Source: Desulfovibrio aminophilus DSM 12254 (GTDB lineage: Bacteria > Desulfobacterota > Desulfovibrionia > Desulfovibrionales > Desulfovibrionaceae). Taken from it: 64,000 nucleotides of DNA. Below, one piece after another: positions 25,222 to 60,374 of the stretch. A program made the position numbers and the translations under genes. The notes beneath the pieces are model-generated. The model did not search any database. It was not told the origin of the DNA and saw only the letters and a program-made list of their open reading frames with translations. The stretch's first letter is position 1. Each line of letters starts with the position of its first letter. Location of the stretch: contig NZ_AUMA01000003.1 of NCBI RefSeq assembly GCF_000422565.1, positions 310,001 to 374,000 of the forward strand, in the 5' to 3' direction.

Positions 25222-27219
25222 ATGGCCAGCAGAATCGGTGTGTACGTATGCCATTGCGGCACGAACATCGCCGGCAGGGTGGATTCGGCGGGCGTGGCGC
25301 GCTTCGCGGCGGGACTCAAGAACGTGGTCGTGGCCCGGGATTACAAATTCATGTGTTCGGACCCGGGGCAGGACATGATCATCAAGGACATCCGGGAGAT
25401 GGGCCTGACCCGGGTGGTGGTGGCGTCCTGTTCGCCGCGGCTGCACGAGAAGACCTTCCAGAAGGCCTGCCAACGCGGCGGGCTGAACCCCTTTCTCTTT
25501 CAGATGACCTGCATCCGGGAGCATTGCTCCTGGGTAGTGGCCGATCCGGGAGAGGCCACGGCCAAGGCCCGCAACTTGGTGGCCGCGGCGGTGTCCCGGG
25601 TCAATTACCATGACGAACTGCATTCCCGCGTGGAGGCCGTACACCCCGACGTGCTCGTGGTGGGCGGCGGAATCGCCGGAATCCAGGCCGCCCTGGACAT
25701 CGCCAAGTCGGGCCACAAGGTCCACCTCGTGGAGAAGGGGCCTTCCATCGGCGGTCACATGGCCCAGTTCGACAAGACCTTCCCGACCCTGGACTGCGCG
25801 GCCTGCATCTCCACGCCCAAGATGGTGGCCGTGGCCCAGGAACCGAACATCAATCTCATGACCATGAGCGAGGTGGTGGAGGTCAAGGGCTACGTGGGGA
25901 ACTACACGGTGCGGGTGCGGACCGCGCCGCGCTATGTGAACCAGGATCTCTGCACGGGCTGCGGCCTGTGCATGGAGAAGTGCCCCAAGAGCGTGACCAG
26001 CGAGTTCGAGGAAGGCATCGGCAAGCGCAAGGCCATCCACCGCAACTCGCCCCAGAGCGTGCCCAACACCCCGGTGATCGACCCCGCCGTCTGCATCCAT
26101 TTCGTCAAAGGCAAGTGCGGAGCCTGCGAGAAGCATTGCCCCTCCGGGGCCATCGATTTCCAGCAGACCGAATCCTTCCTGGACCTGCAGGTGGGCACCG
26201 TGGTTCTGGCCACCGGCTTCGACATCCTCGACCCGTCCAGCCTGCCGCAGTATGGCTTCGGCCGCTATCCCGAAGTCTACACAGGGTTGCAGTTTGAACG
26301 TCTGAACAACGCCGTGGGCCCCACAGGCGGCAAGATCGTGATGAAGAACGGCCGTCCGCCGGAGAGCGTGGGCATCATCCATTGCGTGGGCAGCCGCGAC
26401 GCGAATCATCATCCGTACTGTTCCCGGGTCTGCTGCATGTACGCCCTGAAGTACGACCACCTCATCAAGGACAAGGTCGGTCACGCCACCCGGGTCTACA
26501 ATTTCTACATCGACATGCGCTGTTTCGGAAAGGGCTATGAGGAATTTTACCGCCGGGTCCAGGAGGAGGGCGTGACCTTCATCCGGGGCCGGCCGGCCGA
26601 GATCACCGACCGCGCGTCCACTCCCGCCGAGAAGGGCAAGCTCGTGGTGGTCTGCGAGGACACGCTGCTGGGACGCACCCTGCGTGTCCCCGTGGACATG
26701 GTGGTGCTCTGCACGGCCATGACGCCTCGGCGCGACGCCTCGGACGTAGCCCGGGTCTTCGGCATCAGCCAGGGCCAGGACGGCTTCTTCCTGGAGGAGC
26801 ACCCCAAGCTCGGGCCGGTATCCACGGCCACCGACGGCATCTTCCTGGCCGGAACCTGCCAGGGGCCCAAGGACATCCCCGACGCCGTGGCTCACGCCTC
26901 GGGCGGCGCTGGACAGGCCCTGGCCTTGGCGGCGCGCGGCGAGGTGGACATCTCGCCCACGGTCTCCTGGATCAACCCGGACATCTGCGTGGGCTGCAAG
27001 ATGTGCATCGACCTCTGCGCCTACTCGGCCATCGAGTTCGACGAGCGGCGCAAGGTCTCGGTGATCAACGAGGCCATGTGCAAGGGCTGCGGCAGCTGCG
27101 CCGGCCACTGCCCCAGCGGGGCGGCCCAGATCCGCCATTTCAACGGCAAGCAGGTCTTCGCGGAGATGGAGGGGCTTCTGAGCCCGACTCCGGAAGCGCC
27201 CGGCGCGGAAGCCGTCTGA
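25222..27219 (+). CDS. HdrA-type flavin iron-sulfur subunit (heterodisulfide reductase A)
   Basis: A 665-residue full-length HdrA, the FAD subunit that carries out electron bifurcation in Hdr complexes. It has an N-terminal CHCG segment, the FAD motif VVGGGIAGIQAALDIA (148-160), the HdrA cysteine pair LDCAACISTPK (192/195), two internal ferredoxin-like clusters (CTGCGLCMEKCP at 244 and a second ending ACEKHCPSGA near 300) and two C-terminal [4Fe-4S] motifs (CVGCKMCIDLC near 590, CKGCGSCAGHCP near 620). ATG 25222 has GGAGGG upstream. It leads a plus-strand run ending at 37964 and is followed 24 bp later by its usual partner MvhD. The substrate-side partner is not known; it is not the sulfate-reduction QmoA, which lacks this layout. 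Confidence 0.92.
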   Translation: MASRIGVYVCHCGTNIAGRVDSAGVARFAAGLKNVVVARDYKFMCSDPGQDMIIKDIREMGLTRVVVASCSPRLHEKTFQKACQRGGLNPFLFQMTCIREHCSWVVADPGEATAKARNLVAAAVSRVNYHDELHSRVEAVHPDVLVVGGGIAGIQAALDIAKSGHKVHLVEKGPSIGGHMAQFDKTFPTLDCAACISTPKMVAVAQEPNINLMTMSEVVEVKGYVGNYTVRVRTAPRYVNQDLCTGCGLCMEKCPKSVTSEFEEGIGKRKAIHRNSPQSVPNTPVIDPAVCIHFVKGKCGACEKHCPSGAIDFQQTESFLDLQVGTVVLATGFDILDPSSLPQYGFGRYPEVYTGLQFERLNNAVGPTGGKIVMKNGRPPESVGIIHCVGSRDANHHPYCSRVCCMYALKYDHLIKDKVGHATRVYNFYIDMRCFGKGYEEFYRRVQEEGVTFIRGRPAEITDRASTPAEKGKLVVVCEDTLLGRTLRVPVDMVVLCTAMTPRRDASDVARVFGISQGQDGFFLEEHPKLGPVSTATDGIFLAGTCQGPKDIPDAVAHASGGAGQALALAARGEVDISPTVSWINPDICVGCKMCIDLCAYSAIEFDERRKVSVINEAMCKGCGSCAGHCPSGAAQIRHFNGKQVFAEMEGLLSPTPEAPGAEAV

Positions 27220-27243: not shown

Positions 27244-27714
27244 ATGGAAGAACTGGTCGTCGTTCCGCAAACGGAATCCCGGACAGTCCCGGGGGAGAGC
27301 TTCGAGCCCGCCATCGTGGCCTTTGTCTGCAACTGGTGTACTTACACCGCCGCCGATTTGGCGGGCACCGCGCGCATGGTCCAGTCGCCCAACGTCCGCC
27401 TGGTGCGCATGATGTGCACCGGCATGGTCGATCCCAAGTATGTCATCAAGGCCCTTCTGAGCGGGGCCGACGCCGTGCTCGTCTCCGGCTGTCACCCCGG
27501 GGACTGCCACTACATCAACGGCAACTACAAGGCCCGCCGGCGCATCAAGCTGCTCAAGGAGATCCTGCCGCGCTTCGGCATCGACGAGCGGCGGCTCAAG
27601 TTGACCTGGGTGGGCGCAAGCGAGGGCAACGAATTCGCCGCCACGGTCAATTCCTTCGTGGCCGAGATCAAGGAGCTGGGGCCCATCGACACCCGGCGCC
27701 TGCCCTTGCTCTGA
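27244..27714 (+). CDS. MvhD-type hydrogenase iron-sulfur subunit
   Basis: A 156-residue [2Fe-2S]-type protein with the MvhD landmarks FVCNWCTYTAADLAG, VRMMCTGMVDP and SGCHPGDCHYINGN and a conserved WVGASEGNEFA C-terminal segment. MvhD passes electrons between HdrA and a partner dehydrogenase or hydrogenase. In some anaerobes one of these cysteines is selenocysteine; here all are encoded as Cys. It lies between HdrA and an FdhB-like gene, spaced 24 and 25 bp, so it is in the same operon. Confidence 0.93.
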   Translation: MEELVVVPQTESRTVPGESFEPAIVAFVCNWCTYTAADLAGTARMVQSPNVRLVRMMCTGMVDPKYVIKALLSGADAVLVSGCHPGDCHYINGNYKARRRIKLLKEILPRFGIDERRLKLTWVGASEGNEFAATVNSFVAEIKELGPIDTRRLPLL

Positions 27715-27739: not shown

Positions 27740-28882
27740 ATGGGAACCATCGCCAGAATCGAGGTCAAGGACGGCAATCCGGTGGCCGCGGTGCAAGAAC
27801 TCTGCGTCCAGCTGCTGGGGGACGATGAGATCGCGGCCGTGCTCGTGCCTCGGCGTCTGCCCGGAACCAATGGGACCATGCCCGCGCTCATCACCGATCC
27901 GGCCGAGCTGCGGGACGCCGATCCCCTGGCTCCATCCTTCCGCATCAACGGAGCCCGCATGTTGGCCCGGCTCACCCGGGGCGGCACGGATGGCGGCCTG
28001 GTGGCGGCTTTCCTGCGGCCTTGCGAGGTTCGGGCTTTCGTGGAGTTGTGCAAGCTGAATCAGGGCAGCATGGAAAACGCCCTGATCATCAGCGCCGACT
28101 GTCCAGGGGCCTTTTCCAATGCGGATTATCCCACCTTCGCGGGAAATGGCGACGCGGCAGAGGCCGAGACGGACTTCCTGCGCGCCGAAGGACGGGGAAA
28201 CTTCAACGGCGTGGAGATCGCGCGGGCCTGCGCGGTCTGCGATCATCCCTCGAGCGCGGAAGCCGACCTGTCCATCGGCATCTTCGGCCAGAGTCCGGAT
28301 CAGGGTCTGCTGCTTCTGGCCAACACCCCCCGGGGCGAAGGATTTATGACCCGGCTGCAATTGCCCGAGGTCGTCGACGACGGGGGGCGGAGCAAGGCTC
28401 TCGGAGAGCTGGTCGCCGAGCGGAGCGCCGCCCGCGACAGGATGTTCGAGGAGACGTCCGCCGCCACCTCGGACATGAACGGCCTGTCCACTTTCCTCGC
28501 GGCCTGCGTCAACTGCTACAACTGCCGGATGGCCTGCCCGGTCTGCTATTGCAAGGAGTGCGTCTTCCTCACCGACGTCTTCGACCACAAGCCCTGGCAG
28601 TACATCTCCTGGGCCCGTCAGCGCGGCAGCCTGAAGATGCCCACGGACACCGTCTTTTTCCACATCACCCGTCTGGCCCACATGAGCACCGCCTGCGTGG
28701 GGTGCGGGCAGTGCTCCAACGCCTGTCCCAACGGGGTACCGGTCATGGAGCTGTTCCGGACCATCGCCGCCTCAACCCAACGTGCTTTCGAGTACGAGGC
28801 GGGCCGAAATCTCAATGAGCCCCCGCCGCTGTCGGTGTTCCGGGAGCGGGAATTCGCCGAGGTCACCGGAGGATTGGAGTAG
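27740..28882 (+). CDS. FdhB/FrhB-like iron-sulfur protein with two [4Fe-4S] motifs
   Basis: A 380-residue protein. The N-terminal two thirds resemble the F420-hydrogenase/formate-dehydrogenase beta-subunit fold, with RPCEVRAFVELCKLNQG near residue 95. The C-terminal third has CVNCYNCRMACPVCYCKEC (about 255-275) and CVGCGQCSNACPNGVPVMELFR (about 318), quoted in part, matching two ferredoxin clusters. Such proteins link Hdr/MvhD modules to a dehydrogenase or ferredoxin pool. GGAGG lies before the ATG. No F420 is expected in this lineage, so the electron donor is probably another carrier such as NAD(P)H or ferredoxin (inference). Confidence 0.78.
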   Translation: MGTIARIEVKDGNPVAAVQELCVQLLGDDEIAAVLVPRRLPGTNGTMPALITDPAELRDADPLAPSFRINGARMLARLTRGGTDGGLVAAFLRPCEVRAFVELCKLNQGSMENALIISADCPGAFSNADYPTFAGNGDAAEAETDFLRAEGRGNFNGVEIARACAVCDHPSSAEADLSIGIFGQSPDQGLLLLANTPRGEGFMTRLQLPEVVDDGGRSKALGELVAERSAARDRMFEETSAATSDMNGLSTFLAACVNCYNCRMACPVCYCKECVFLTDVFDHKPWQYISWARQRGSLKMPTDTVFFHITRLAHMSTACVGCGQCSNACPNGVPVMELFRTIAASTQRAFEYEAGRNLNEPPPLSVFREREFAEVTGGLE

Positions 28883-32402: not shown

Positions 32403-32981
32403 ATGAACGAACGGACCGAAGCCGTTTCTCTGCCCGCGGCCGCGACCATCGCGGTCGACATCACGGCCCTGGCGGAAATCCAGGACATGGTGCGGGCCTG
32501 CATGCAGTGCGGAACCTGCTCCGCCTCCTGCCCCAACGCCCCGGCCATGGACCGCACGCCCAGGAGTCTGTGGCGCATGCTCCTGCTGGGGCTCGTGGAC
32601 GAGGTGCTGGAAAGCCGAACTTTCTGGCTCTGCTCGGCCTGCTACTCCTGCACGCTGCGCTGCCCGCGCGGCCTGCCCCTGACCGAGGCCATGGCCGCGC
32701 TGAAGCGCTTGGCCGCCACCGACGGCCGGGCCGCGGACCGCAAGCGCGGGCTCTTCTACGAGGACTTCATACGCAACGTGGAGAAGAACGGGCGGGTGCG
32801 CGAAACGGAACTCATGCTCCACTACTTCCTGGACATGCGCGATCCGCTCCTGCCCCTGGACTACACCCCGCTCGGCCTGAAGCTCCTGCGCAAGGGCAAG
32901 CTGCGCCTGGGCGGAAGCGGACAGCGAGGCAGGCTCGGCCCGCTCTTCGCCAAGGTCCGTGAAATGGAGGCCCGGCCATGA
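32403..32981 (+). CDS. HdrC-type iron-sulfur subunit
   Basis: A 192-residue protein with two [4Fe-4S] motifs: CMQCGTCSASCP at about residue 33 and CSACYSCTLRCPRG at about 77, the HdrC pattern that wires HdrA to HdrB. There is an unusual 20-residue N-terminal lead and a basic C-terminal tail. AAGGAGG precedes the ATG. The ATGA overlap with the next gene (32978-32981) couples it to HdrB, as expected for an obligate pair. Confidence 0.92.
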   Translation: MNERTEAVSLPAAATIAVDITALAEIQDMVRACMQCGTCSASCPNAPAMDRTPRSLWRMLLLGLVDEVLESRTFWLCSACYSCTLRCPRGLPLTEAMAALKRLAATDGRAADRKRGLFYEDFIRNVEKNGRVRETELMLHYFLDMRDPLLPLDYTPLGLKLLRKGKLRLGGSGQRGRLGPLFAKVREMEARP

Positions 32982-33865
32982 AGTACAGCTACTATCCCGG
33001 CTGCTCCCTGGAGAGCGGGGCGGTGGAGTACGACCTTTCCAGCCGCGAGGTGTTGCGTCTGCTCGGCGTGGAGCTGGCGGAAATTCCGGATTGGACCTGC
33101 TGCGGCGCGAGCGCCGTGGAGCCCGTGAGCCGCCTGCTGACCCTGGCCCTGCCGGCCCGCAATCTGGCCCTGGCCGAGCGCGAGGCTCCGGACGCGGACA
33201 TGCTCGTGCCGTGCAGCGCCTGCTACCTGAACCACATGCGCGTGGAGCGGGAATGCGAGGCGGACCGCAAACTCGCGGCCAGGGTCAACGAGGCCCTCTC
33301 CGCCGAGGGACTGAGCCGCTCAGGCACGGTGCGGGTCCGCCACCTCCTGGACGTGCTCGCCCGGGACGTGGGCCCGGAGCGGGTGGGCCAGGCCGTGGTC
33401 CGCCGCCTGGAGGGGCTGACCGTGGCGCCTTATTACGGCTGTCAGGTGCTGCGACCCTATCCGCTGTTCGACGATCCGGAACGTCCGGCCTCGATGGAGC
33501 CCCTGCTCAAGGCCTTGGGGGTCGAGGTCTTGGACTGGGACATGGGCGGCCGCTGCTGTGGAGCCTCGCTCATGGCCACCAAGCGCGCGGCGGCACTGGC
33601 CCTGGTGTCCGCCATCCTGGACGCGGCATCTGAGGCGGATCTCATCGTCACGGTCTGCCCCATGTGCCAGATGAACCTGGAGGCCTACCAGAAGGAGGCC
33701 ATCCGCTCCGGCGGCAGGGGACGCCCGGTGTCGGTGCTCTATCTGCCTCAGCTCATGGGCCTGGCGCTGGGTCTTTCGGAAGACGACGTGTTGTTGGGCA
33801 AGAACATGGCGGTCACGGACGCTCTGCGCGGCAAGCTGCGCGCGCCCGCGGCCGCGACGGTCTGA
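32978..33865 (+). CDS. HdrB-type CCG-domain catalytic subunit
   Basis: A 295-residue protein with two cysteine-rich CCG domains. The first has YYPGCSLES, WTCCGASA and PCSACYLNHM; the second has YYGCQVLRP, GGRCCGASLM and VCPMCQMNLEAYQ. In HdrB these bind the noncubane [4Fe-4S] clusters that reduce disulfides; here both sets of cysteines are complete. The physiological disulfide or other acceptor in sulfate reducers is not known. It overlaps hdrC by 4 bp and lies 31 bp upstream of a universal stress gene. Confidence 0.93.
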   Translation: MKYSYYPGCSLESGAVEYDLSSREVLRLLGVELAEIPDWTCCGASAVEPVSRLLTLALPARNLALAEREAPDADMLVPCSACYLNHMRVERECEADRKLAARVNEALSAEGLSRSGTVRVRHLLDVLARDVGPERVGQAVVRRLEGLTVAPYYGCQVLRPYPLFDDPERPASMEPLLKALGVEVLDWDMGGRCCGASLMATKRAAALALVSAILDAASEADLIVTVCPMCQMNLEAYQKEAIRSGGRGRPVSVLYLPQLMGLALGLSEDDVLLGKNMAVTDALRGKLRAPAAATV

Positions 33866-33896: not shown

Positions 33897-34847
33897 ATGT
33901 TCAAGGACATCCTTTTGGCGATCACGCCGTCGGAATTGTGCGACTGTGCGGCTGACGCGGCCTTCCACTTCGCGCAGCGGTTCGAGTCCCGCCTGGTCGT
34001 GGTGCATGTCTGTGGCATGGTCCAGGGCTGGGGCGAGATGGAGTTCCTGGAGTCTTCCGGCGAGGTCGGCCGGATCAAGGCCTCGGTGGAGGAATACTAC
34101 AAGGACAAGCTCAAGGGGCTTGAGAACTACGAGATCAAGGTGGTGCCCGGCGTGCCTCACGCCGAGATTCTGCGCATCGCCCGCAAGATGAACTCCGACC
34201 TCATCGTCATGGGGCCGCACACCAAGGAATACGCGGAGTTGCGTTCCCGCCAGTGGGGCATGGCCGGCAGCACCCTGGAGCAGGTCAGCCAGAAGTCGCG
34301 TTGTCCGGTCATGATCGTGGCCAAGTCCACGCCTTACGGCGAACACAATTTCATGAACATCGTCGCCGCCACGGACTTCTCCGAGCAGGCCGATTGCGCG
34401 GTCTTCTACGGCGGCCAGATCGCCCGGCATTACAAGGCCGGTCTCTCGGTCTTCCACTGCGTGGACGCGGGCGGAGAGTCTGGTCGGGTTTCGTTGAGCC
34501 AGGAGGAGATCCGCCGCTCCATCGAGACGGCCAAGACCGCTCTTGAGGACCGGTACGGAGACAAGCTCCGGGGCATCAAGAATTGCTCCTTCGACGCCTG
34601 GGAGGGAATGCCCGCCATGGAGATCCTCAAGCTGGCGCGGATGCGCGAGGCCGATCTCATCCTCATGGCCCACCATACCCGTGAAACCGATCCCGAGAAG
34701 GCCTTCCTGGGATCCACCGTGGTCCAAGTGGCCCTCAACGCCACCTGTCCGACCATGAGCGTGAACCGTCATTTCGACCTGCGCTGCGGTCTGATGTACG
34801 ACCAGGGCGGCGAAGTGGTCTCGGAAACCGGTATGGCCGCCGTCTAG
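33897..34847 (+). CDS. Tandem universal stress protein (two UspA domains)
   Basis: A 316-residue protein with two UspA domains (about 1-145 and 150-300). Each starts with a strand-acidic motif (FKDILLAITPSE; MNIVAATDFSEQ) and ends with a nucleotide-binding stretch (GMAGSTLEQVSQKSRCPVMIV; STVVQVALNATCPTMSV). The first domain keeps a G-x9-G-S/T-like loop. USPs bind ATP and act in stress and dormancy. The odd point is its position inside an Hdr operon, between hdrB and a response regulator, with GGAGG upstream and 16 bp to the next gene. Confidence 0.88.
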   Translation: MFKDILLAITPSELCDCAADAAFHFAQRFESRLVVVHVCGMVQGWGEMEFLESSGEVGRIKASVEEYYKDKLKGLENYEIKVVPGVPHAEILRIARKMNSDLIVMGPHTKEYAELRSRQWGMAGSTLEQVSQKSRCPVMIVAKSTPYGEHNFMNIVAATDFSEQADCAVFYGGQIARHYKAGLSVFHCVDAGGESGRVSLSQEEIRRSIETAKTALEDRYGDKLRGIKNCSFDAWEGMPAMEILKLARMREADLILMAHHTRETDPEKAFLGSTVVQVALNATCPTMSVNRHFDLRCGLMYDQGGEVVSETGMAAV

Positions 34848-34863: not shown

Positions 34864-35253
34864 ATGAACGAACTGATCAGGGTGCTGGTGGTGGACGACG
34901 ACGCGCGTTTCGCCGGCAATATGGCCAAGCTCCTGGAGGCATACGGCCTCTTCGCCGACACGGTGAACAGCGGTGAGGAGGCCGTGAAGACCTTGGGCCG
35001 GGACGCCTACGACGTGGTGCTCCTGGACATGCGTCTGCCCGGGCTCACCGGTACGGCCACCCTGGAGCGTCTGGGCGAGGCCCGGGTCGGGGCCAGGATC
35101 ATCGTGGTCACGGGGCACGCCTCGCCGGACGACGCGGCCGAGTTCCTTCGGCTGGGGGCTTTCGACTACCTGCTCAAGCCCTGCAAGACGGAGAAGCTCC
35201 TGGAGGTGATCCGCAGGGCCCACGGAAGCAGGACCGGGGCGACGGTCGGCTAG
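34864..35253 (+). CDS. Single-domain response regulator
   Basis: A 129-residue CheY-like receiver with intact residues: acidic triad Asp11-13, phospho-acceptor Asp55 (VVLLDMRLPG), Thr83 (VVTGHAS) and Lys105 (YLLKPC). There is no output domain, so it must act by protein contact, perhaps with a redox subunit encoded around it (inference). It could receive phosphate from the hybrid kinase at 23007 directly or through the Hpt protein at 47529. AAGGAATGCC precedes the ATG. Confidence 0.92.
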   Translation: MNELIRVLVVDDDARFAGNMAKLLEAYGLFADTVNSGEEAVKTLGRDAYDVVLLDMRLPGLTGTATLERLGEARVGARIIVVTGHASPDDAAEFLRLGAFDYLLKPCKTEKLLEVIRRAHGSRTGATVG

Positions 35254-35281: not shown

Positions 35282-36577
35282 ATGGGAGAGACAATGACGA
35301 CGCTGACGCCCAGGACCAGCGAATTCCTGGGCAAGGTCATGAACCTGATGCCGGAAGGCGGAAACCTGTCCATGTGTCTGACCTGTGGTGCCTGCGCTGC
35401 AGGGTGTCCAGCGTCGGGCCTGCACGACATGGACCCGCGCAAGTTTCTTCGGCTGTGCGCCCTGGGACAGGATGAAATCGTGCTCTCCACCCCCTGGGTC
35501 TGGATGTGCACCATGTGCCAGCGATGCGTTTACGCTTGTCCCATGCGCATCGACATTCCGCGTCTGATTTACGAGGCGCGTTCTTCGTGGCCCAGGGAGA
35601 ACCGGCCCAAGGGCATCCGGGGTTCCTGCGACCAGGCGCTGAACACGGAAGGCAATTCGGCCATGGGGGCGAGAAGCGAGGACTTCAAGTTCGTGGTCGA
35701 GGACATCCTGCAGGAGGTCAAGGAGTCGCAGCCCGGCTGGGAGGATCTTTCCGTTTCCTTCAATCGCCAGGGCGCGGAGTATTTCCTGAACCAGAACTCC
35801 CGCGAACCCGTGACCGAGCCGGACGAGATGGTCCCGCTGTGGAAAATCCTGCACACCACGCAATGTGATTGGACCTATGGAACATTGGGCTGGGCCGCCG
35901 AGAACTACTGCATGTTCCTGGCCGACGACAAGGCCTGGGAAACGATCGTGCGCAACAAGGTCCGGGCTGTGGAGGAGCTGGGATGCCGCTATTGGCTGAA
36001 CACGGAGTGAGGGCACGAGATGTACGCAATCCGGTCCGGATTGCAGAAGTTCGGCATCACCCCCAAGTTCGAGATCGAGAGCATCATCCGCCTGTATGCC
36101 CGTTGGATACGGGAAGGGAAGCTGAAGGTCAGTTCCGACTGGAACCGGGATATTGGAGTAACCTTTACGGTCCAGGATCCCTGCCAGCTCGTGCGCAAGT
36201 CCTTCGGCGACCCGGTGGCCGAGGATCTGCGGTTCGTGGTCAAGTCCGTGGTCGGCGAGGAGCACTTCATCGAGATGTACCCCAACCGTTCCAACAATTA
36301 TTGCTGCGGCGGCGGGGGCGGCTATCTCCAATCCGGCTTCACCGCCGAGAGGAGAGCCTATGGGGAAAGGAAGTTGCGACAGATTCTGAACACCGGCGCG
36401 GACTATTGCATTGCTCCGTGCCACAACTGCCATTCACAGATTCACGATCTCTCCGAACATTCAGGCAAGCATTTTCCGGTGGTTCACCTTTGGACCCTTA
36501 TCTGCTTGTCCATGGGGTGTCTTGGAGAGAACGAGCGCAGCTATCTGGGCGAAGACCTGGCCGGCGTGGGGCTATGA
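35282..36577 (+). CDS. Selenocysteine-containing HdrC/HdrB-type (HdrD-like) protein; UGA at codon 243 read as Sec
   Basis: Read through the TGA at 36008-36010, one frame of 431 codons encodes two ferredoxin motifs (CLTCGACAAGCP, C32-C42; CTMCQRCVYACP, C76-C86), U243 in the motif NTE-U-GHEMYAIRSG, and a complete C-terminal CCG domain (C301, C341-C342-G, C380-x2-C383). The paralogue at 36651 is collinear and has Cys235 in PDCGGGSYG at the same place. The frame does not shift. A perfect hairpin with a GGUC apex lies 15 nt after the UGA, and selC is at 60282. AGGAGGGAATGCC precedes ATG 35282. A routine caller would split it at ATG 36020. It is likely a catalytic Hdr-complex component; Sec could ligate the cluster or attack the substrate (inference). 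Confidence 0.86.
36011..36044 (+). promoter_or_regulatory. Bacterial-type SECIS element downstream of UGA(Sec)
   Basis: Directly after the UGA, a 15-nt spacer leads to GCAATCCG-GTC-CGGATTGC (36026-36044), a perfect 8-bp stem whose apex reads GGUC. SelB-binding SECIS hairpins of bacteria lie within the coding sequence just 3' of the UGA and carry a G/GU-containing apical loop, as in E. coli fdhF. Spacing and apex agree. Its codons still encode AIRSGLQ. Confidence 0.82.
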
Positions 36578-36650: not shown

Positions 36651-37964
36651 ATGAGCACCGTCATTCCCACCTCCCTGGATGAGGAAATCCGGCTGCATCT
36701 CGCCAAGTTCGATTTCAGCGCCTGTTTGGCCTGCGGGGCGTGCAGCAGCGGCTGCCCGAGCGGCGACGCCCCGGACAACGAGGGCTGGAACATCCGCAAG
36801 GTGTTGCGCATGTTGGCCTACGGGATGCTGGACGAAGTCGTGGCCTCCAACTTCCCCTGGCTCTGTACGGGCTGCGGCCGCTGCGCCCTGGCTTGCCCCA
36901 TGGGCCTGGACATCGTGCCGATCATGCTCCATATGAAGCACCTCCGCTCCCGCGACGCGGTGCCCGGCGTGCTCCAGAAGGGCATCGTGAACAATCTGGA
37001 GAGCGGCAACAACATGAACATCTCGCGGGACGACTACCTCCAGGGCATGGCCGAATTGGGCCAGCAGCTCTCGGACGAGGAGTGTCCCGGCTTCTACGTG
37101 CCCGTGGATCGCGCCGCCGCCGACATCCTGTTCTTTCCCAACTCCAAGGAAGTCTACGGCGACTTCGAGGATCAGTTCTGGTGGTGGAAGATATTCTACG
37201 CCGCGGGAGAGAACTGGACTGTGCCCTCAGAGGGTTGGGAGGCAGTGGATTGGGCCCTGTTCACCGGCAACTACGAGGGAATCAGGGCCCTGGCCGAGCG
37301 CAAGATCGAGTTCATCAAGCGGCACGGCATCCGGCGAATGATCATGCCGGACTGTGGCGGCGGCTCCTACGGTTGCCGGACCGGCATGAAGCACTGTATC
37401 GAGCTGAACGAGGAGAATAAGGTCAATTTCATTTATCTTTATGACTACCTGAAGGAAATCATCGAGCAGGGGCGGATCAAGCTGGACAAGAGCGTGCATG
37501 CCGGCAAGCTCTTTACCTGGCACGATTCCTGTAAGCACGGCCGCGAACTGCTCAAACACTACGGGCAGGCGTTTTTCGACGAACCACGCTGGATTCTCTC
37601 CCAGTGCGTGGACGACTTCGTGGAGATGACGCCCAACCGCGAGGCCAATTACTGCTGCGGCGCGGGCGGGGGCAACTGGCCAGGCCCCTTCGAGAAACAA
37701 TCGGCCTTCCACGGCCGCTACAAGGCCGAGCAGATCCGGCGTACCGGCGCGGACGTGGTGGTGGTCGGCTGTTCCAACTGCCGCGACCAGATCATGAAGC
37801 GCCTGCCCAAGTACTACAAGGATCTCAAGTACGAGGTGAAGTACCTCTGGCAGGTGGTGGCCGAGGCCCTGGTCATCGAACCTTGGGCGGATGACGTCGT
37901 GAACCGCGCGACCCTGGAGGCCGCCGCTCAGTGGAAGGCATTCGGCATTGAACCGGAGGTCTGA
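36651..37964 (+). CDS. HdrC/HdrB-type (HdrD-like) iron-sulfur protein, Cys paralogue of the selenoprotein
   Basis: A 437-residue protein with ferredoxin motifs CLACGACSSGCP (C25-C35) and CTGCGRCALACP (C72-C82), DCGGGSYGC (C235, C242) and a full CCG domain (C294, C335-C336, C374-x2-C377). Its layout matches the upstream selenoprotein throughout, with Cys235 at the Sec position. The start 36651 has GAGG 8 bases upstream; the frame is open further 5' but that part encodes only the selenoprotein 3' end in another frame. It is the last gene before a terminator at 38027. Together the pair may form the terminal disulfide- or thiol-handling module of the Hdr complex (inference). Confidence 0.86.
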   Translation: MSTVIPTSLDEEIRLHLAKFDFSACLACGACSSGCPSGDAPDNEGWNIRKVLRMLAYGMLDEVVASNFPWLCTGCGRCALACPMGLDIVPIMLHMKHLRSRDAVPGVLQKGIVNNLESGNNMNISRDDYLQGMAELGQQLSDEECPGFYVPVDRAAADILFFPNSKEVYGDFEDQFWWWKIFYAAGENWTVPSEGWEAVDWALFTGNYEGIRALAERKIEFIKRHGIRRMIMPDCGGGSYGCRTGMKHCIELNEENKVNFIYLYDYLKEIIEQGRIKLDKSVHAGKLFTWHDSCKHGRELLKHYGQAFFDEPRWILSQCVDDFVEMTPNREANYCCGAGGGNWPGPFEKQSAFHGRYKAEQIRRTGADVVVVGCSNCRDQIMKRLPKYYKDLKYEVKYLWQVVAEALVIEPWADDVVNRATLEAAAQWKAFGIEPEV

Positions 37965-38204: not shown

Positions 38205-39827
38205 ATGTCCATTGTCGAACGTTTGCTGGACGCCTATCCTCGCGAGGGCGACATCCCTTCCGAATATGCCCTGGCCGCTCCGCTGGAGGATCGCGGCTAT
38301 CTGCTCAACGGTGAGATTCTGCGCTGGCCCGGCGAAATGACGCGCATCGATTCAACTGTGGCCGTTCGTTCCGGCGACCGGCTCGCTCCGGTTCATCTCG
38401 GCTACGGTCCGGTTCTGGACGAAGCGGCCGGCTTGGCGGCCGTGGCGGCCGCCGACGCGGCCTACGGCGACGGCATGGGGGCTTGGCCGACCATGGGCGT
38501 GGCCGAACGCATCCGACACGTGCGGGAGTTCATCCCTCGCCTGGAGGCGTGCCGTGACGATGTCGTCCGGTTCATGATGTGGGAGATTTGCAAGCCGCTG
38601 AAAGAGGCTCGGGACGAATTCGAACGCACCGTGGAGGACATCCGCGACACCGTGGAGGCCCTCGATGGCCTGCATCGCGCCTCGGCCCGCTTCGTCGAGG
38701 AGAAGGGCATCTTCGCCCAAATCCGGCGCGCCCCCCTTGGACCGGTGCTCTGCATGGGGCCCTACAACTATCCCCTGAACGAGACCTTCGCCACGCTCAT
38801 CCCGGCGCTGCTCATGGGCAACACGGCCATCGTCAAAACCCCGCGCCAGGGCCGCCTGATCTTCGGTCCGCTTCTGGAGGCCTTCCGTGACTGTTTCCCA
38901 AAGGGCGTGGTGAACGTTCTGCACGGCGACCGCCGCGTGGTCCGGCCCATCCTCCAGTCCGGCAGGATAAGCGTGTTGGCCTTCATCGGCACGAGCGCCG
39001 TCGCGGCCTCCCTGCGTGCACTCCATCCCCACCCGAACCGCCTGCGCTGCGTGCTCGGCCTGGACGCCAAGAATCCGGCCATCGTCACGGAATCCGCGGA
39101 CATGGAGCTGGCGGCCTCGGAAGTGCTGACCGGCAGCTTGGCCTTCAGCGGCCAGCGCTGCACCGCGTTGAAGATCGTCTTCGTGCATGAGAGCCGTCTG
39201 GACGAGATGCTCGAACGTCTGTCCCGGGGCATCGGAAGGCTTACCGTGGGCATGCCCTGGATCCAGGGCGTGAACATCACTCCCCTGCCGACGCACGGCA
39301 AAATCGAGTACCTGACGGAGCTGCTGGACGACGCCCGCTCCCGGGGGGCGCATGTGGTCAATCCCGACGGCGGCGCCTCGGTGGGGGCCTTGTATCATCC
39401 CGCCCTGCTGTCGCCGGTGAGCGGGGACATGCGTGTCTTTCACGAGGAGCAGTTCGGGCCGATCGTTCCCGTGGTGCCGTATCGCGACGCCCGCGAACCC
39501 ATCGAGGCCCTGGTGCGTTCCAAATACGGACAGCAGGTCAGCGTGTTCAGTTCCGACCCCGAGGCCCTGGCCCGACTCATCGACCCTCTGGTCAATCAGG
39601 TCTGCCGGGTGAACGTCAACAGCAAGTGCCAGCGCGGCCCGGATACGTTCCCGTTCACGGGGCGCAAGGACTCGGCCGAGGGCACGCTCTCGGTGAGCGA
39701 CGCCCTGCGCTGCTTCTCCATCCGCACGCTGGTGGCGGCCAAGGGCACCGAAGGCAACAAGGCCCTGCTCAACGACATCGTGGGCGGGGGCAGGTCCACG
39801 TTCCTGTCCACGGACGGATCCTTGTAG
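38205..39827 (+). CDS. NAD(P)-dependent aldehyde dehydrogenase, GapN-like
   Basis: A 540-residue ALDH-superfamily enzyme. It has the cofactor-binding segment GPVLCMGPYNYPLNE, VKTPRQGRLIFGPLLE, the FIGTSAVAA turn, the Glu-region LGLDAKNPAIV (normally ELGGK-NP; here Leu-Gly-Leu-Asp) and the nucleophile in FSGQRCTALK near residue 318, then EEQFGPIVPV. GQRCTALK is the form seen in non-phosphorylating glyceraldehyde-3-phosphate dehydrogenases. AAGGAGG precedes the ATG. It lies after the Hdr-operon terminator and 47 bp before the NAD(P)H oxidoreductase gene, so it likely starts a second unit with the hydrogenase. Exact aldehyde unknown. Confidence 0.82.
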   Translation: MSIVERLLDAYPREGDIPSEYALAAPLEDRGYLLNGEILRWPGEMTRIDSTVAVRSGDRLAPVHLGYGPVLDEAAGLAAVAAADAAYGDGMGAWPTMGVAERIRHVREFIPRLEACRDDVVRFMMWEICKPLKEARDEFERTVEDIRDTVEALDGLHRASARFVEEKGIFAQIRRAPLGPVLCMGPYNYPLNETFATLIPALLMGNTAIVKTPRQGRLIFGPLLEAFRDCFPKGVVNVLHGDRRVVRPILQSGRISVLAFIGTSAVAASLRALHPHPNRLRCVLGLDAKNPAIVTESADMELAASEVLTGSLAFSGQRCTALKIVFVHESRLDEMLERLSRGIGRLTVGMPWIQGVNITPLPTHGKIEYLTELLDDARSRGAHVVNPDGGASVGALYHPALLSPVSGDMRVFHEEQFGPIVPVVPYRDAREPIEALVRSKYGQQVSVFSSDPEALARLIDPLVNQVCRVNVNSKCQRGPDTFPFTGRKDSAEGTLSVSDALRCFSIRTLVAAKGTEGNKALLNDIVGGGRSTFLSTDGSL

Positions 39828-39874
39828 AGGGAGACGACCGGGAAGCGGAAGAACGCAACCGCAGCGAGGGAAAC

Positions 39875-41872
39875 ATGGCGCGCATCATCTATGGAGTCTG
39901 GGATTCGCGGGTCCATGACAATCGGGGCAAGGGCCTGTTTGAAATCCCGGAATCGGTGGAGCTGGCCGAGTTCGACGCCTTCAATCAGGGCAACCCCATC
40001 AAGGCCTTCGTGGGCGACCGGGGATTCTTCGTCTTCGCCCCGGACACGAGCCTGCTGGACGCCCTGTTCCGCCACTTGGCCGCCGCCGCCGTGGAATCCT
40101 GCGGAAAGTGCACGCCTTGCCGCGTGGGATTGCATCTCATCCAGGAAAAACTCGCCGCCTTGCGTGACGGCAAGGGCGGGCCGGAACTCCTGGACGAGGC
40201 CGCCGAACTGGCCCGGCTGGCCGGATCGACCTCGCGCTGCAACCTGGGCCGCTCCAGCGCCGTGGCCCTGCTGGCCGCCGTGGAGCATTTCCGCGATGTG
40301 CTCGAGGCCGAGATCCTGGCCGCGCCGCTGCCGGTGCAGCCCGGCCAGTCCTACACCACGGCCCCCTGCGTGGAGGCCTGCCCGGCCAAGGTCAACGTGC
40401 CGCGCTACATCGACTACATCAAGGACGGCAAGCCTTCGCATTCCCTGGGCGTGATCCTGCAAAAATATCCCATGGCCGCCACCTGCGGCCGGGTCTGCGT
40501 GCGCTTCTGCGAACAGGCCTGCCGCCGGGGCCTGGTGGACGAGCCCGTGGGCATCAAGACCCTCAAGCGCTATGTGGCCGACCACGAGCACCATCTTTCC
40601 GAACATTGGTTCACCCGCGACCTCATCGAGGAAGAGAAGCCGTCGCATCTCAAGGTGGCCGTGGTGGGCGCCGGCCCGGCGGGCATCTCCTGCGCCTACC
40701 ATCTGTTGCTCAAGGGCTATCCCGTGGACGTGCTGGAGGCCCGCGACGAGGCCGGAGGCATGGCCGCCTGCGGCATCCCCAGCTATCGTCTGCCCAAGTC
40801 CGTGCTCAAGTCCGAGGTGCGCATCGTGGAGGATCTGGGCGGCCGCATCTTCTACAATCGCCGCATGGGTCGCGACTTCACCCTCGACGATCTCTTCGCC
40901 CAGGGCTACAAGGCCGTGTTCCTCGCCCTGGGCTGCTCCACGGGCCGACCGCTGGGCGTGAAGGGAGAGCACTGCTCCGAGGGCTGTCGTTCCGGCGTGG
41001 ATTTCCTCCTGGACGTGCATGATCACGTGGAGGGCCAGCGCCCCATGAGCCTGACCGGCAGGACCGTGGTGGCCGTGGGCGGCGGCAACGTGGCCATGGA
41101 CTGCGTGCGCTCGGCATTGCGTCTGGGAGCCAAAGCCGTGCATCTGGTCTACCGCCGGGGCCGCGAAGACATGCCGGCGGATCACGAGGAGGTCGAGGCC
41201 GCCGAGCAGGAAGGCGTGATCTTCCATTTTCTGAGCAACCCCACGCGCATCCTCTCCGAGGATGGGCGGGTCATCGGCGTGGAACTCATCGAGATGCGTC
41301 CGGTGGAGACCGACGGCCGGGGACGGCGCGGGGTGGACCCCGTGCCCGGCACGGAGCGCGTACTGCCCTGCGACCTGCTCATCTCGGCCGTGGGTCAGCA
41401 GATGGACAGCGCTTCCGTCAGTCCCGGCGACGGCGTGGTCATCGACAAACGCGGCTGCCTGGAGACCGACCCCATGACTTTGGCCACGGCCCGACAAGGC
41501 GTCTTCGCGGGCGGCGACTGCGTGCTCGGCCCCTCAACCCTGATTCATGCCATGGCCAACGGCCTCAAGGCCTCTCGGGCCATAGACGACTATCTGACCT
41601 ACGGCCGGGTGCGCTTCTTCGCCCGCAGCCGCATGCGCAAGCTCATCAACGACTTCATGGTCCGCTCCAAGGAGTGGACGGACGCCCCGGTGAAGCACCT
41701 CTACCGCATCCGGGGGCAGGAACTGGATCCCGCCGAACGCCGTGAACTGTTCGAGGAGGTGGAGCGCCCGATCGGACAGGAGGAGGCTTACCGCGAGGCC
41801 GGGCGTTGTCTGCGTTGCTACCGAATCTATTCCCTGGTCACGGAATCGCCCATCCCCAAGGGCAGCTACTAG
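39875..41872 (+). CDS. NuoF-tail / GltD-like NAD(P)H-dependent FAD iron-sulfur oxidoreductase
   Basis: A 665-residue fusion. The first 150 residues hold the NuoF-type cluster region ESCGKCTPCRVGLHLIQEK and a later CNLG. Then comes a glutamate-synthase-small-subunit-like module with cysteine motifs (CVEACPAKVNVPRYI, CGRVCVRFCEQACRR), an FAD loop VAVVGAGPAGISCAYHLL (near 267), an NAD(P) loop VAVGGGNVAMDCVRSALR and GVFAGGDCVLGPSTLIHAMANG, quoted in part. Proteins of this layout pair with group A2 [FeFe] hydrogenases. ATG 39875 has GAGGG upstream. It lies 10 bp before the hydrogenase gene. The likely role is electron exchange between NAD(P)H and hydrogen or ferredoxin. Confidence 0.86.
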   Translation: MARIIYGVWDSRVHDNRGKGLFEIPESVELAEFDAFNQGNPIKAFVGDRGFFVFAPDTSLLDALFRHLAAAAVESCGKCTPCRVGLHLIQEKLAALRDGKGGPELLDEAAELARLAGSTSRCNLGRSSAVALLAAVEHFRDVLEAEILAAPLPVQPGQSYTTAPCVEACPAKVNVPRYIDYIKDGKPSHSLGVILQKYPMAATCGRVCVRFCEQACRRGLVDEPVGIKTLKRYVADHEHHLSEHWFTRDLIEEEKPSHLKVAVVGAGPAGISCAYHLLLKGYPVDVLEARDEAGGMAACGIPSYRLPKSVLKSEVRIVEDLGGRIFYNRRMGRDFTLDDLFAQGYKAVFLALGCSTGRPLGVKGEHCSEGCRSGVDFLLDVHDHVEGQRPMSLTGRTVVAVGGGNVAMDCVRSALRLGAKAVHLVYRRGREDMPADHEEVEAAEQEGVIFHFLSNPTRILSEDGRVIGVELIEMRPVETDGRGRRGVDPVPGTERVLPCDLLISAVGQQMDSASVSPGDGVVIDKRGCLETDPMTLATARQGVFAGGDCVLGPSTLIHAMANGLKASRAIDDYLTYGRVRFFARSRMRKLINDFMVRSKEWTDAPVKHLYRIRGQELDPAERRELFEEVERPIGQEEAYREAGRCLRCYRIYSLVTESPIPKGSY

Positions 41873-41882
41873 GAGGACGGCC

Positions 41883-43703
41883 ATGCGCGCGCATATCGAC
41901 GGCAGGGAAGTCGTGTTCGAGGACGGTCAGAGCATCCTCGAGGTGGCCCGGAACAACGGCTTTTTTATTCCCACGCTCTGCGAGCTGGCCGACATCAACC
42001 ACACTCCCGGCACCTGCCGGGTCTGTCTGGTGGAGATGCGCCGAACCCCGGATGCCGTGCCGGTGGTGGTCACGTCCTGCAACACGCCCTTGCAGGAGGA
42101 CATGCTCGTGTCCACCAACTCCCTGGAATTGCGGCGCATGCGGCGGCTTCAGGTAGAACTACTCCTGGCCGACCACGACCAGGACTGCGCTTCCTGCTCC
42201 CGGCACGGCGACTGCGAACTGCTCGACGTGGCACGGGTGGTGGGCATCGAGCGGGAACGCCCGGTCCTGGAACACCCAGGCGGAGGCCGCACCCGCAACC
42301 TGACGGCCACGGCTGTGACCCGGGACATGGGCAAGTGTGTGCGCTGCCTGCGCTGCCTGGCCGTGTGCCGCAACATTCAGGGCGTGGACGCCCTGGTGGT
42401 GGCCGGGGAGGGCTTGACCTGCGAGATCAATCTGCGCGACGGCCAAAGCCGCCCGGAGCCCGGCTGCGTGTCCTGCGGTCAGTGCACCCTGGTCTGTCCG
42501 GTGGGGGCCCTGGCCGCCAAGGACGACACGGGCCGGGCCGCGGACATGCTGGCCGACCCGGACAGCGTGGTAGTGGCCCAGTTCGCTCCGGCCGTGCGCG
42601 TGGGCCTGGGCGAGGAATTCGGCTTGGCCCCGGGCGTCAACGTGGAAGGACGCATCATCTCCGCACTGCGGGCTTTGGGCGTGGATGTGGTTCTCGACAC
42701 CAACTTCGCCGCCGACCTGGTCATCATGGAGGAGGGCACCGAACTCCTCGGTCGTCTGAAGCAAGGTGGCCCGCTGCCCCTGTTCACCTCCTGCTGCCCG
42801 GCCTGGATCAACTTCGTGGAGACCCGCCATCCCGAACTGCTGCCCCGGATCTCCAGCACCCGTTCGCCGCAACAGTGCCTGGGCGCGCTGGCCAAGACCT
42901 ATCTGGCCCGCAACATGAGCCTGGAGCGGGAACGTGTGCGTGTGATCTCGATCATGCCTTGCACGGCCAAGAAGGACGAGGCCCGGCGTCCCGCGCTGTT
43001 CACGGATGGTTCGCCGGACGTGGATGTGGTGCTGACCACCCGGGAGTTCGCCGAACTCATGCGCATGCACGGCCTGGACCTGAAAAACCTGCCCGAATCC
43101 GATTTCGACAATCCGCTCATGGGCGCCTATTCCGGAGCGGGGGCCATCTTCGGCACCACCGGTGGAGTCATGGAGGCGGCCGTGCGCACGGTCTACCACG
43201 TGCTCAACGGCCGGGAACTGGAGAACATCGAACTGACTCCGCTGCGGGGCTACGAGAACGTCCGCGAGGCCGTGCTCGACCTGGGCCCGGAGGCCGGGCC
43301 CCTGAAGGTGGCCGTGGTTCACGGCCTGAAGGGCGCCGCGCGCATGGTCGAGGACGTGTTGGCCGGACGCTCGGACCACGCCTTCATCGAGGTCATGGCC
43401 TGCCCCGGCGGCTGCATGGACGGCGGCGGCCAACCTCGGGTGAAGCGGGCCTACCAACCGCACGCCCAGGCCCGGCGACAGGCCCTGTTCGCCATCGACC
43501 GGGGCTGCGGGGTGCGCCAGTCGCACAACAACCCGCTTATCCGAAAGCTTTACGAGGATTTTCTTGAGCGGCCCAATTCCCATCTGGCCCATGAACTGCT
43601 GCATACCGGCTACGGGGATCGCCGCCGGGAGCGGTATTACACCATGAAGGAAATCTGGCGGGAGATCACCCTGGCCACCCGAGTTCACGGGCAGAACGGC
43701 TGA
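41883..43703 (+). CDS. [FeFe] hydrogenase, group A2-like (glutamate-synthase-linked)
   Basis: A 606-residue cytoplasmic hydrogenase without a signal peptide. It starts with a plant-type [2Fe-2S] domain (CELADINHTPGTCRVCLVE), an accessory His/Cys motif (HDQDCASCSRHGDCEL) and two [4Fe-4S] motifs (CVRCLRCLAVC, CVSCGQCTLVCP). The H-cluster motifs follow: TSCCPAW (near 302), MPCTAKKDE (near 357) and MACPGGCMDGGGQP (near 505), all cysteines present. A small-subunit-like tail includes YTMKEIWRE. AGGAGG precedes ATG 41883. The adjacent GltD-like fusion is the defining neighbour of group A2. Maturases HydE/F/G are not in the window. It can make or take up H2 using NAD(P)H or ferredoxin. Confidence 0.92.
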   Translation: MRAHIDGREVVFEDGQSILEVARNNGFFIPTLCELADINHTPGTCRVCLVEMRRTPDAVPVVVTSCNTPLQEDMLVSTNSLELRRMRRLQVELLLADHDQDCASCSRHGDCELLDVARVVGIERERPVLEHPGGGRTRNLTATAVTRDMGKCVRCLRCLAVCRNIQGVDALVVAGEGLTCEINLRDGQSRPEPGCVSCGQCTLVCPVGALAAKDDTGRAADMLADPDSVVVAQFAPAVRVGLGEEFGLAPGVNVEGRIISALRALGVDVVLDTNFAADLVIMEEGTELLGRLKQGGPLPLFTSCCPAWINFVETRHPELLPRISSTRSPQQCLGALAKTYLARNMSLERERVRVISIMPCTAKKDEARRPALFTDGSPDVDVVLTTREFAELMRMHGLDLKNLPESDFDNPLMGAYSGAGAIFGTTGGVMEAAVRTVYHVLNGRELENIELTPLRGYENVREAVLDLGPEAGPLKVAVVHGLKGAARMVEDVLAGRSDHAFIEVMACPGGCMDGGGQPRVKRAYQPHAQARRQALFAIDRGCGVRQSHNNPLIRKLYEDFLERPNSHLAHELLHTGYGDRRRERYYTMKEIWREITLATRVHGQNG

Positions 43704-60281: not shown

Positions 60282-60374
60282 TGGCGGAAGCGTACAGGAG
60301 TCGAACCTGCCCGAGAGGATGAGTCTCGCAATGGGTTTGAAGCCCACGCGCCACACCGGTGACGAAACGCTTCC
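60282..60374 (-). tRNA. selC: tRNA-Sec (selenocysteine tRNA, anticodon TCA)
   Basis: The minus strand gives an 8-bp acceptor stem GGAAGCGT / ACGCTTCC, anticodon loop CTTCAAA with TCA (60338-60340), a long variable arm, the T-loop GGTTCGACTCC and G plus encoded CCA. The 8-bp acceptor stem, long extra arm and UCA anticodon define tRNA-Sec; about 93 nt in all. It means the organism decodes UGA as selenocysteine, which supports the in-frame UGA at 36008. A possible promoter is TTGCCC-17-TAAGTG upstream on the same strand. Confidence 0.96.

Follow-up and report, generated by a model that had tools for sequence, protein, structure and literature searches.

The gene at 35282-36577 of the window (the whole stretch of DNA analysed here, 64,000 nt of Desulfovibrio aminophilus DSM 12254, NZ_AUMA01000003.1, 310,001-374,000) almost certainly encodes a soluble HdrD-type protein in which an internal UGA is translated as selenocysteine (Sec243), by means of SelABCD and a hairpin located within the gene at 36026-36044 (Table 1). 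Our best explanation as a whole, which joins the Sec gene, its membership of the UGH family, the cluster site and the mechanism discussed below, appears to us probable. The open reading frames 35282-36010 (242 aa) and 36020-36577 (185 aa) share a common frame, whose sole stop before 36575 is the TGA at 36008-36010, and to judge from the comparisons that follow they very probably form a single gene of 431 codons with Sec243 encoded by that TGA. The preliminary description of this stretch had joined the two frames by read-through of the TGA, and had noted an unbroken frame on both sides, ferredoxin motifs before the UGA with a complete CCG domain after it, a Cys at the aligned position of the paralogue at 36651, a perfect 8-bp hairpin 15 nt past the UGA, and selC in the same window (60282-60374, minus strand); all of these points held up, the TGA column and the hairpin being conserved in homologues.

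At the residue-243 column, which had been singled out as the place to look for Cys or U, the 137 distinct homologues above 400 bits in the fetched loci (aligned at 53-100% identity, with the window gene included) carried TGA (120/137) or a Cys codon (17/137; 13 TGC and 4 TGT), and all 160 rows comprised 140 TGA, 16 TGC and 4 TGT; the share of Cys in these sets is not a frequency estimate, because one of the six search peptide patterns has Cys codons at residue 243 and so favours Cys copies, if anything, the best 80 of 325 were kept in the pattern search, and further Cys copies were chosen for want of a stop. Since 17 homologues have Cys, Sec is not indispensable. In the neighbouring paralogue (36651-37964), the codon aligned with the UGA is TGT (Cys, PDCGG). 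Of the 106 closest among the matches listed for 297 genomes of the class (E up to 1.7e-150; counted by eye, with only some candidates scored per genome), 92 had an in-frame TGA, accompanied in one of them by a TAA, and the rest had no stop at all (13) or a TAG (1). In a phylum-wide sample of 297 genomes, 37 gave a match at E up to 1e-100; the 50 matches listed for this sample (counted by eye) comprised 38 with one TGA and 12 with none. In annotation the gene is easily split in two by mistake, and its close relatives are spread over the phylum, so that correct calls matter for models of energy metabolism.

Constraint on the protein extends past the UGA: compared with the homologue L090, changes in the downstream part numbered 15, 9 and 64 at codon positions 1, 2 and 3, and the third-position bias was strong on both sides of the UGA in the homologue comparison (substitution table without row L002, which is out of register at 12% identity). 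The gene therefore combines the marks expected of a selenoprotein gene, namely an in-frame UGA, protein-level conservation on either side of it and Cys homologues at the same column. Two coupled genes, a 242-aa ferredoxin-type protein ending at the UGA followed by a CCG protein starting at ATG 36020, would accord with the GAGG at 36009-36012 that precedes this ATG and with the start codon present at most 12 codons past the UGA in 32/120 UGA homologues (ATG in 20). However, no ATG, GTG or TTG occurs within 12 codons in the other 88/120, the median first start is codon 38, beyond the invariant G279, and the 13 stop-free homologues of the class are single ORFs. Neither TAA nor TAG was seen at the column in any of the 160 rows, a stop at this point would split a domain between strand 237-240 and helix 244-256, and stand-alone proteins ending at residue 242, which the preliminary description had named as counter-evidence, were absent from the matches listed. 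We therefore regard the two-gene arrangement as very improbable.

A bacterial SECIS element is a hairpin that closely follows the UGA and whose apical loop opens with a G. The hairpin of the window gene has this geometry, with a perfect stem of 8 bp (36026-36033 paired with 36037-36044), a GUC loop (36034-36036) and a distance of 15 nt from the UGA. Taken singly it is only moderately unusual (z of -2.89 for 36019-36050 as compared with shuffles), and random draws of synonymous codons for the same peptide formed all 8 pairs in 644/100,000 and at least 7 in 7,313/100,000; it is lifted above chance by the comparison with relatives, in which the stem is conserved and its pairs covary. Among 112 distinct UGA stretches, 8 pairs were formed in 71 and at least 7 in 108, and the first base of the loop was G in all of them (112/112), whereas 8 pairs were formed in 0/17 and at least 7 in 3/17 of the Cys stretches. 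In 66 of the 112 stretches, hand-chosen for spread, 95.1% of the cells were paired, as compared with 11.0-42.8% when the partner was slid, and 34 cells had changed on both sides, as compared with a mean of 6.8 in shuffles, which the kinship of the sequences makes lenient and for which the Cys set provides a matched control; these compensatory changes occurred in 5/8 pairs. The 17 Cys stretches were paired in 55.1% of cells against a mean of 58.7 in their own shuffles, and in 20.6-46.3% in slid versions. The hairpin is thus kept in the Sec versions of the gene and lost in nearly all Cys versions.

The genome holds the complete set of selA, selB, selC and selD. In addition to selC within the window, selA (G000:C1:279508-280878) and pieces of selB (within C1:282330-284222) were detected above cut-off about 26-30 kb before the window, and selD was detected above cut-off at G000:C23:149247-150164, so that all three genes whose absence the preliminary description would have held against a Sec reading were found. 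The selD gene has one in-frame TGA of its own, and SelD is therefore probably a selenoprotein too. Sequence data do not make the inserted residue visible, and the UGA might be read through with Trp, Cys or Arg by near-cognate insertion instead of Sec; with the Sec machinery complete, the loop-start G in 112/112 stretches and nothing but Cys codons in place of the UGA among 137 distinct homologues, the chance of this appears to us exceedingly slim. A recent nonsense mutation, a pseudogene or a sequencing error, for which the window gene offers no sign even if a few relatives appear to be damaged (an extra TAA in G141, a TAG in G201), is refuted by the presence of the same codon in 120 distinct homologues, by the third-position bias of changes on both sides of the UGA and by the conserved hairpin, and its probability is negligible.

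Sec and Cys appear to have been exchanged repeatedly in this family with loss of the hairpin in the Cys forms, an aspect that, as far as we have seen, is less described. On a tree of 110 of 152 rows retained after thinning (quick search, midpoint root, 40/107 inner branches open), the Sec/Cys label requires 11 changes, 7 of them forced by starred branches; the residue-243 column does not drive this tree, because it was read as Cys in all rows. Subject to the caveat of a midpoint root, change from Sec to Cys is the simplest reading within a mostly-Sec clade, since the Cys rows are scattered inside it. The contrast between a hairpin kept with Sec and lost with Cys extends to closely related pairs, such as L071 (Halodesulfovibrio spirochaetisodalis, Sec) and L130 (Cys), with end branches of 0.034 and 0.13. 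The tree suggests that for the clade sampled here the pattern of exchange differs from that of a 2006 survey, whose accessible text gives for GlpC no Sec-to-Cys and two Cys-to-Sec events (PMC1794560). Most of these changes cannot be put down to loss of the Sec machinery, because selA was above cut-off in 11/12 genomes with a TGA-less copy (11 stop-free and G201 with TAG; the column was read in the stop-free copies other than those of G361, G425 and G542), as it was in 15/15 genomes with TGA copies; the exception, G201, lacks selA and carries TGC at the residue-243 column. One enzyme in Sec and Cys versions, with the hairpin kept or lost, amounts to a natural experiment.

Two further groups of relatives were observed. 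A Cys-type copy (NIECGH, about 62-64% identity) adjoins the Sec gene in L092, L093/L133, L094, L012/L138 and L098/L141, and such neighbours possibly form Sec/Cys isoenzyme pairs. A distant HdrD-like group of 31-34% identity (L048 and L142-L146; e.g., L048:12162-13283 and L142:3236-4444) has TGA at the same column (PE-U-GH) and, in L142, L145 and L146, adjoins HdrA-like and FdhB-like genes; its hairpin misfits the 8-pair geometry (30/48 cells) and has another geometry.

By motif and linkage, this iron-sulfur electron-transfer protein is assigned to the established 'Fe-S oxidoreductase-like (GlpC), UGH' group of selenoproteins. Its kind has thus been described before in sulfate-reducing bacteria, to which the present gene adds a member with another operon context: while the Sec protein of HdrC/HdrB layout proposed in the preliminary description, with Sec at codon 243, is strongly supported, the accompanying suggestion that such proteins are rare or little described has to be given up. 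In their accessible portions, a review lists an 'Fe-S oxidoreductase-like protein, PTHR43551, UGH', with reference to Kryukov and Gladyshev 2004 (PMC13188914), a survey tabulates five GlpC selenoproteins, including those of Syntrophobacter, Desulfotalea and Desulfovibrio vulgaris (PMC1794560), another paper lists DP1009 (PMC1914089), and a 2009 report on Desulfobacterium autotrophicum gives Sec in HdrD4 and HdrF2 (PMC2702500). HdrD4 of strain HRM2, as described there, is likewise a soluble Sec-containing HdrC-HdrB fusion (PMC2702500). The GlpC/UGH family (COG0247, PTHR43551), which these sources in the portions accessible describe from deltaproteobacteria with hdrA and frhD neighbours (PMC13188914, PMC9312934, PMC1794560), shares with our protein the U-G-H motif in a Fer4 plus CCG protein, as the motif is given in the review (PMC13188914), and the linkage to hdrA and frhD/mvhD, or a same-strand HdrA-like or MvhD-like gene, is seen in the window operon and in 43/80 named loci. 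The operon described in the accessible text, glpC-hdrA-frhD-frhG-frhA (PMC1794560), contains the hydrogenase genes frhG-frhA, whereas the window operon is without them and has instead genes for FdhB-like, second HdrA, HdrC, HdrB, Usp-like, response regulator and Cys-type HdrD proteins.

Other named families fit less well. The protein scores 32.4 of the 279.9 bits required by TIGR03379 for GlpC proper, the subunit of anaerobic glycerol-3-phosphate dehydrogenase, and its best NCBIfam matches, DsrK, HmcF and TmcB, are far below their cut-offs (145.9 of 750, 140.4 of 735 and 103.7 of 400 bits, respectively). These proteins have Cys where the Sec protein has Sec; the paralogues in this genome that we read as DsrK-like and HmcF/TmcB-like carry ECGH and a single CCG domain in the corresponding region. 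HdrD is defined as an HdrC-HdrB fusion with two complete CCG domains, including the Cys set in the first. The Sec protein has the two [4Fe-4S] motifs and the HdrB-like fold in one chain but lacks the Cys set of the first CCG domain.

Pfam places Fer4_8 at residues 29-90, the eight Cys of the ferredoxin motifs all preceding the UGA, and detects one CCG domain, at residues 296-387. In the first CCG half, C/U243 is the only invariant Cys column, and this domain, as far as its sequence indicates, is without the other cluster cysteines and retains U243-G-H245. A single noncubane [4Fe-4S] cluster is predicted for the second CCG domain, and H245 aligns with the histidine that ligates this cluster in EtfD. 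An AlphaFold model of the read-through chain (53-row alignment, rows hand-chosen for spread; Cys at 243 and no clusters) had a mean pLDDT of 90.2, with residues 241-250 at 88, and places residue 243 in a turn between strand 237-240 and helix 244-256. Its best fold match, over nearly the whole chain, was EtfD of Mycobacterium smegmatis (9ojn; Z 25.7, 367 residues, rmsd 2.6, 18% identity), in agreement with Foldseek, followed by Helicobacter pylori 3kwl (Z 21.0), HdrB chains (Z about 20) and a LutA model, 9a6l (Z 19.6), in a PDB comparison dominated by residues 161-421; 3kwl and LutA score on a par with HdrB, so that the fold is not specific for HdrD. The methanogen HdrB/HdrC structures (5odc, 7bkb, 8rvu) resemble residues 165-430 in fold and the N-terminal part in sequence, but are separate chains, and HdrB has two noncubane clusters (PMC13083937, accessible text), as compared with one complete CCG domain in the Sec protein.

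In a profile search, the query CGHE (C standing for U243, i.e., UGHE) aligned with CPHC of EtfD, pairing U243 with the first Cys and H245 with the His. According to the accessible text on EtfD, which has transmembrane helices, heme and a linear [3Fe-4S] cluster, Cys581 and Cys584 ligate the linear cluster and His583 the noncubane one, and in HdrB the displaceable bridging ligands are Cys81 and Cys234 (PMC13083937). By this alignment and the EtfD numbering, U243 would correspond to Cys581, H245 to His583 and E246 to Cys584; the other ligand positions of the linear cluster are not Cys in the Sec protein, which thus retains only U243 of that set. That Sec takes the place of the ECGH cysteine, aligned with Cys581 of EtfD and two residues ahead of the one aligned with His583, appears, as far as we have seen, to be a less described feature of this protein. 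A correspondence of U243 with HdrB Cys78 is not claimed, as hhalign profile comparison with HdrB aligned the second CCG domain only (probability 8.7).

The protein is likely to act in the manner of DsrK or HdrD, as a link between HdrABC and a thiol/disulfide partner. We infer from the alignments and the neighbourhood a noncubane cluster with Sec beside it, as placed by the EtfD alignment, electron flow to or from HdrA-MvhD, and a partner of the disulfide type. Electrons would pass between a bifurcating HdrA/MvhD/HdrBC module, both cubane clusters and the noncubane one; next to the latter, Sec243 would be a reactive selenol that opens or forms the disulfide of a partner protein, or binds a sulfur substrate, on the model of the action proposed for DsrK on DsrC. 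The analogy is with the reduction of a DsrC trisulfide by DsrK. We rate this mechanism, HdrA-linked electron flow combined with a Sec243 selenol acting on a partner disulfide or sulfur substrate, as plausible though slightly short of an even chance. A narrower proposal, that Sec243 ligates or acts directly on the noncubane cluster, such that one noncubane cluster and a selenol replace the two clusters of HdrB in heterodisulfide-type chemistry, is tentative and rather doubtful; if Sec does sit on this cluster, the protein would be a test bed for the use of selenium in disulfide-type iron-sulfur chemistry. No statement placing Sec243 on a noncubane cluster was found in a limited search of titles and the beginnings of abstracts, mostly of papers outside subscription.

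Sec residues of oxidoreductases usually act as nucleophiles, which argues against Sec243 being a purely structural or electronic ligand of the remaining cluster (through an Se-Fe bond) in a relay without disulfide chemistry. Such a role seems to us unlikely, even though EtfD, the best fold match, itself serves as a relay, in which the His aligned to H245 closes the noncubane cluster: Cys581 of EtfD is a ligand of the linear cluster, and the remaining ligand positions of that cluster are not Cys in the Sec protein. The His-ligated cluster of EtfD is termed non-catalytic in the accessible text (PMC13083937), which would favour the relay.

The Sec gene is the last but one in a row of genes resembling an operon (HdrA, MvhD, FdhB-like, large HdrA, HdrC, HdrB, Usp-like, response regulator, HdrD-Sec, HdrD2). 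The same-strand HdrA-like or MvhD-like gene noted above was present in 20/31 loci of at least 17 kb, and no same-strand HdrA/MvhD match was found in 37/80 named loci (many of them short contigs) or in 11/31 of those of at least 17 kb; HdrC, HdrB and Usp-like genes recur together in 11/80 named loci. In six other loci, the nearby ORFs examined (ten, picked by length and strand) were unrelated, including ParAB, LpxK, PBP and TrkH. A fixed complex with HdrA is therefore not general.

Table 1. Features of the Sec gene and its surroundings, in window positions
Feature	Position	Strand	Basis or remark
HdrA-like, 665 aa, ordinary TGA stop	25222..27219	+	NCBIfam HdrA2 E 1.8e-238, 793.6 bits, below cut-off 1100
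MvhD/VhuD-like subunit, 156 aa	27244..27714	+	matches below cut-offs
Iron-sulfur protein, presumably FdhB-like	27740..28882	+	no NCBIfam match at 1e-15; adjoins in some loci
Large HdrA-like protein, 1155 aa	28922..32389	+	four stretches match HdrA2 model; unusually large
HdrC-like	32403..32981	+	TIGR03290 86.9 bits, below cut-off 160
HdrB-like	32978..33865	+	TIGR03288 150 bits (cut-off 345); SdhE model 173 bits (cut-off 500); both below
Protein that we take to be Usp-like	33897..34847	+	no NCBIfam match at 1e-15; neighbour in relatives too
Single-domain response regulator	34864..35253	+	part of the operon-like row
HdrD-like (HdrC-HdrB fusion) selenoprotein gene	35282..36577	+	431 residues; own stop TGA 36575-36577
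Two [4Fe-4S] motifs, HdrC-like: C32 C35 C38 C42; C76 C79 C82 C86	35375..35539	+	invariant in 53-row alignment; Pfam Fer4_8
UGA codon read as selenocysteine 243, motif NTE-U-GH	36008..36010	+	TGA/Cys pattern in homologues
Bacterial SECIS-type hairpin, 8 bp, apical loop begins with G	36026..36044	+	conservation in UGA homologues
Complete C-terminal CCG domain: C301, C341, C342, C380, C383; predicted noncubane [4Fe-4S] site	36167..36442	+	Pfam PF02754 E 2.5e-13; Cys invariant
HdrD2, Cys-type HdrD-like paralogue	36651..37964	+	about 28% identical
tRNA-Sec (selC)	60282..60374	-	ARAGORN; Rfam RF01852 79.5 bits at 60286-60374

The same row of genes contains a control for the homologue test. The HdrA-like and MvhD-like genes at 25222-27219 and 27244-27714 also lie in one frame, split by the TGA at 27217-27219 and 24 nt apart, and a second read-through at this TGA was ruled out: in relatives the HdrA stop varies (TAA, TAG or TGA) and frequently stands in a different frame or overlaps MvhD, so that the codon at 27217-27219 is an ordinary stop. 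The homologue test thus separates the Sec UGA at 36008-36010 from an in-window control TGA. A short distance downstream of the Hdr row, the window also contains ORFs for a NuoF/GltD-like flavoprotein (39626-41872) and an [FeFe] hydrogenase of group A (41742-43703; TIGR02512 above cut-off).
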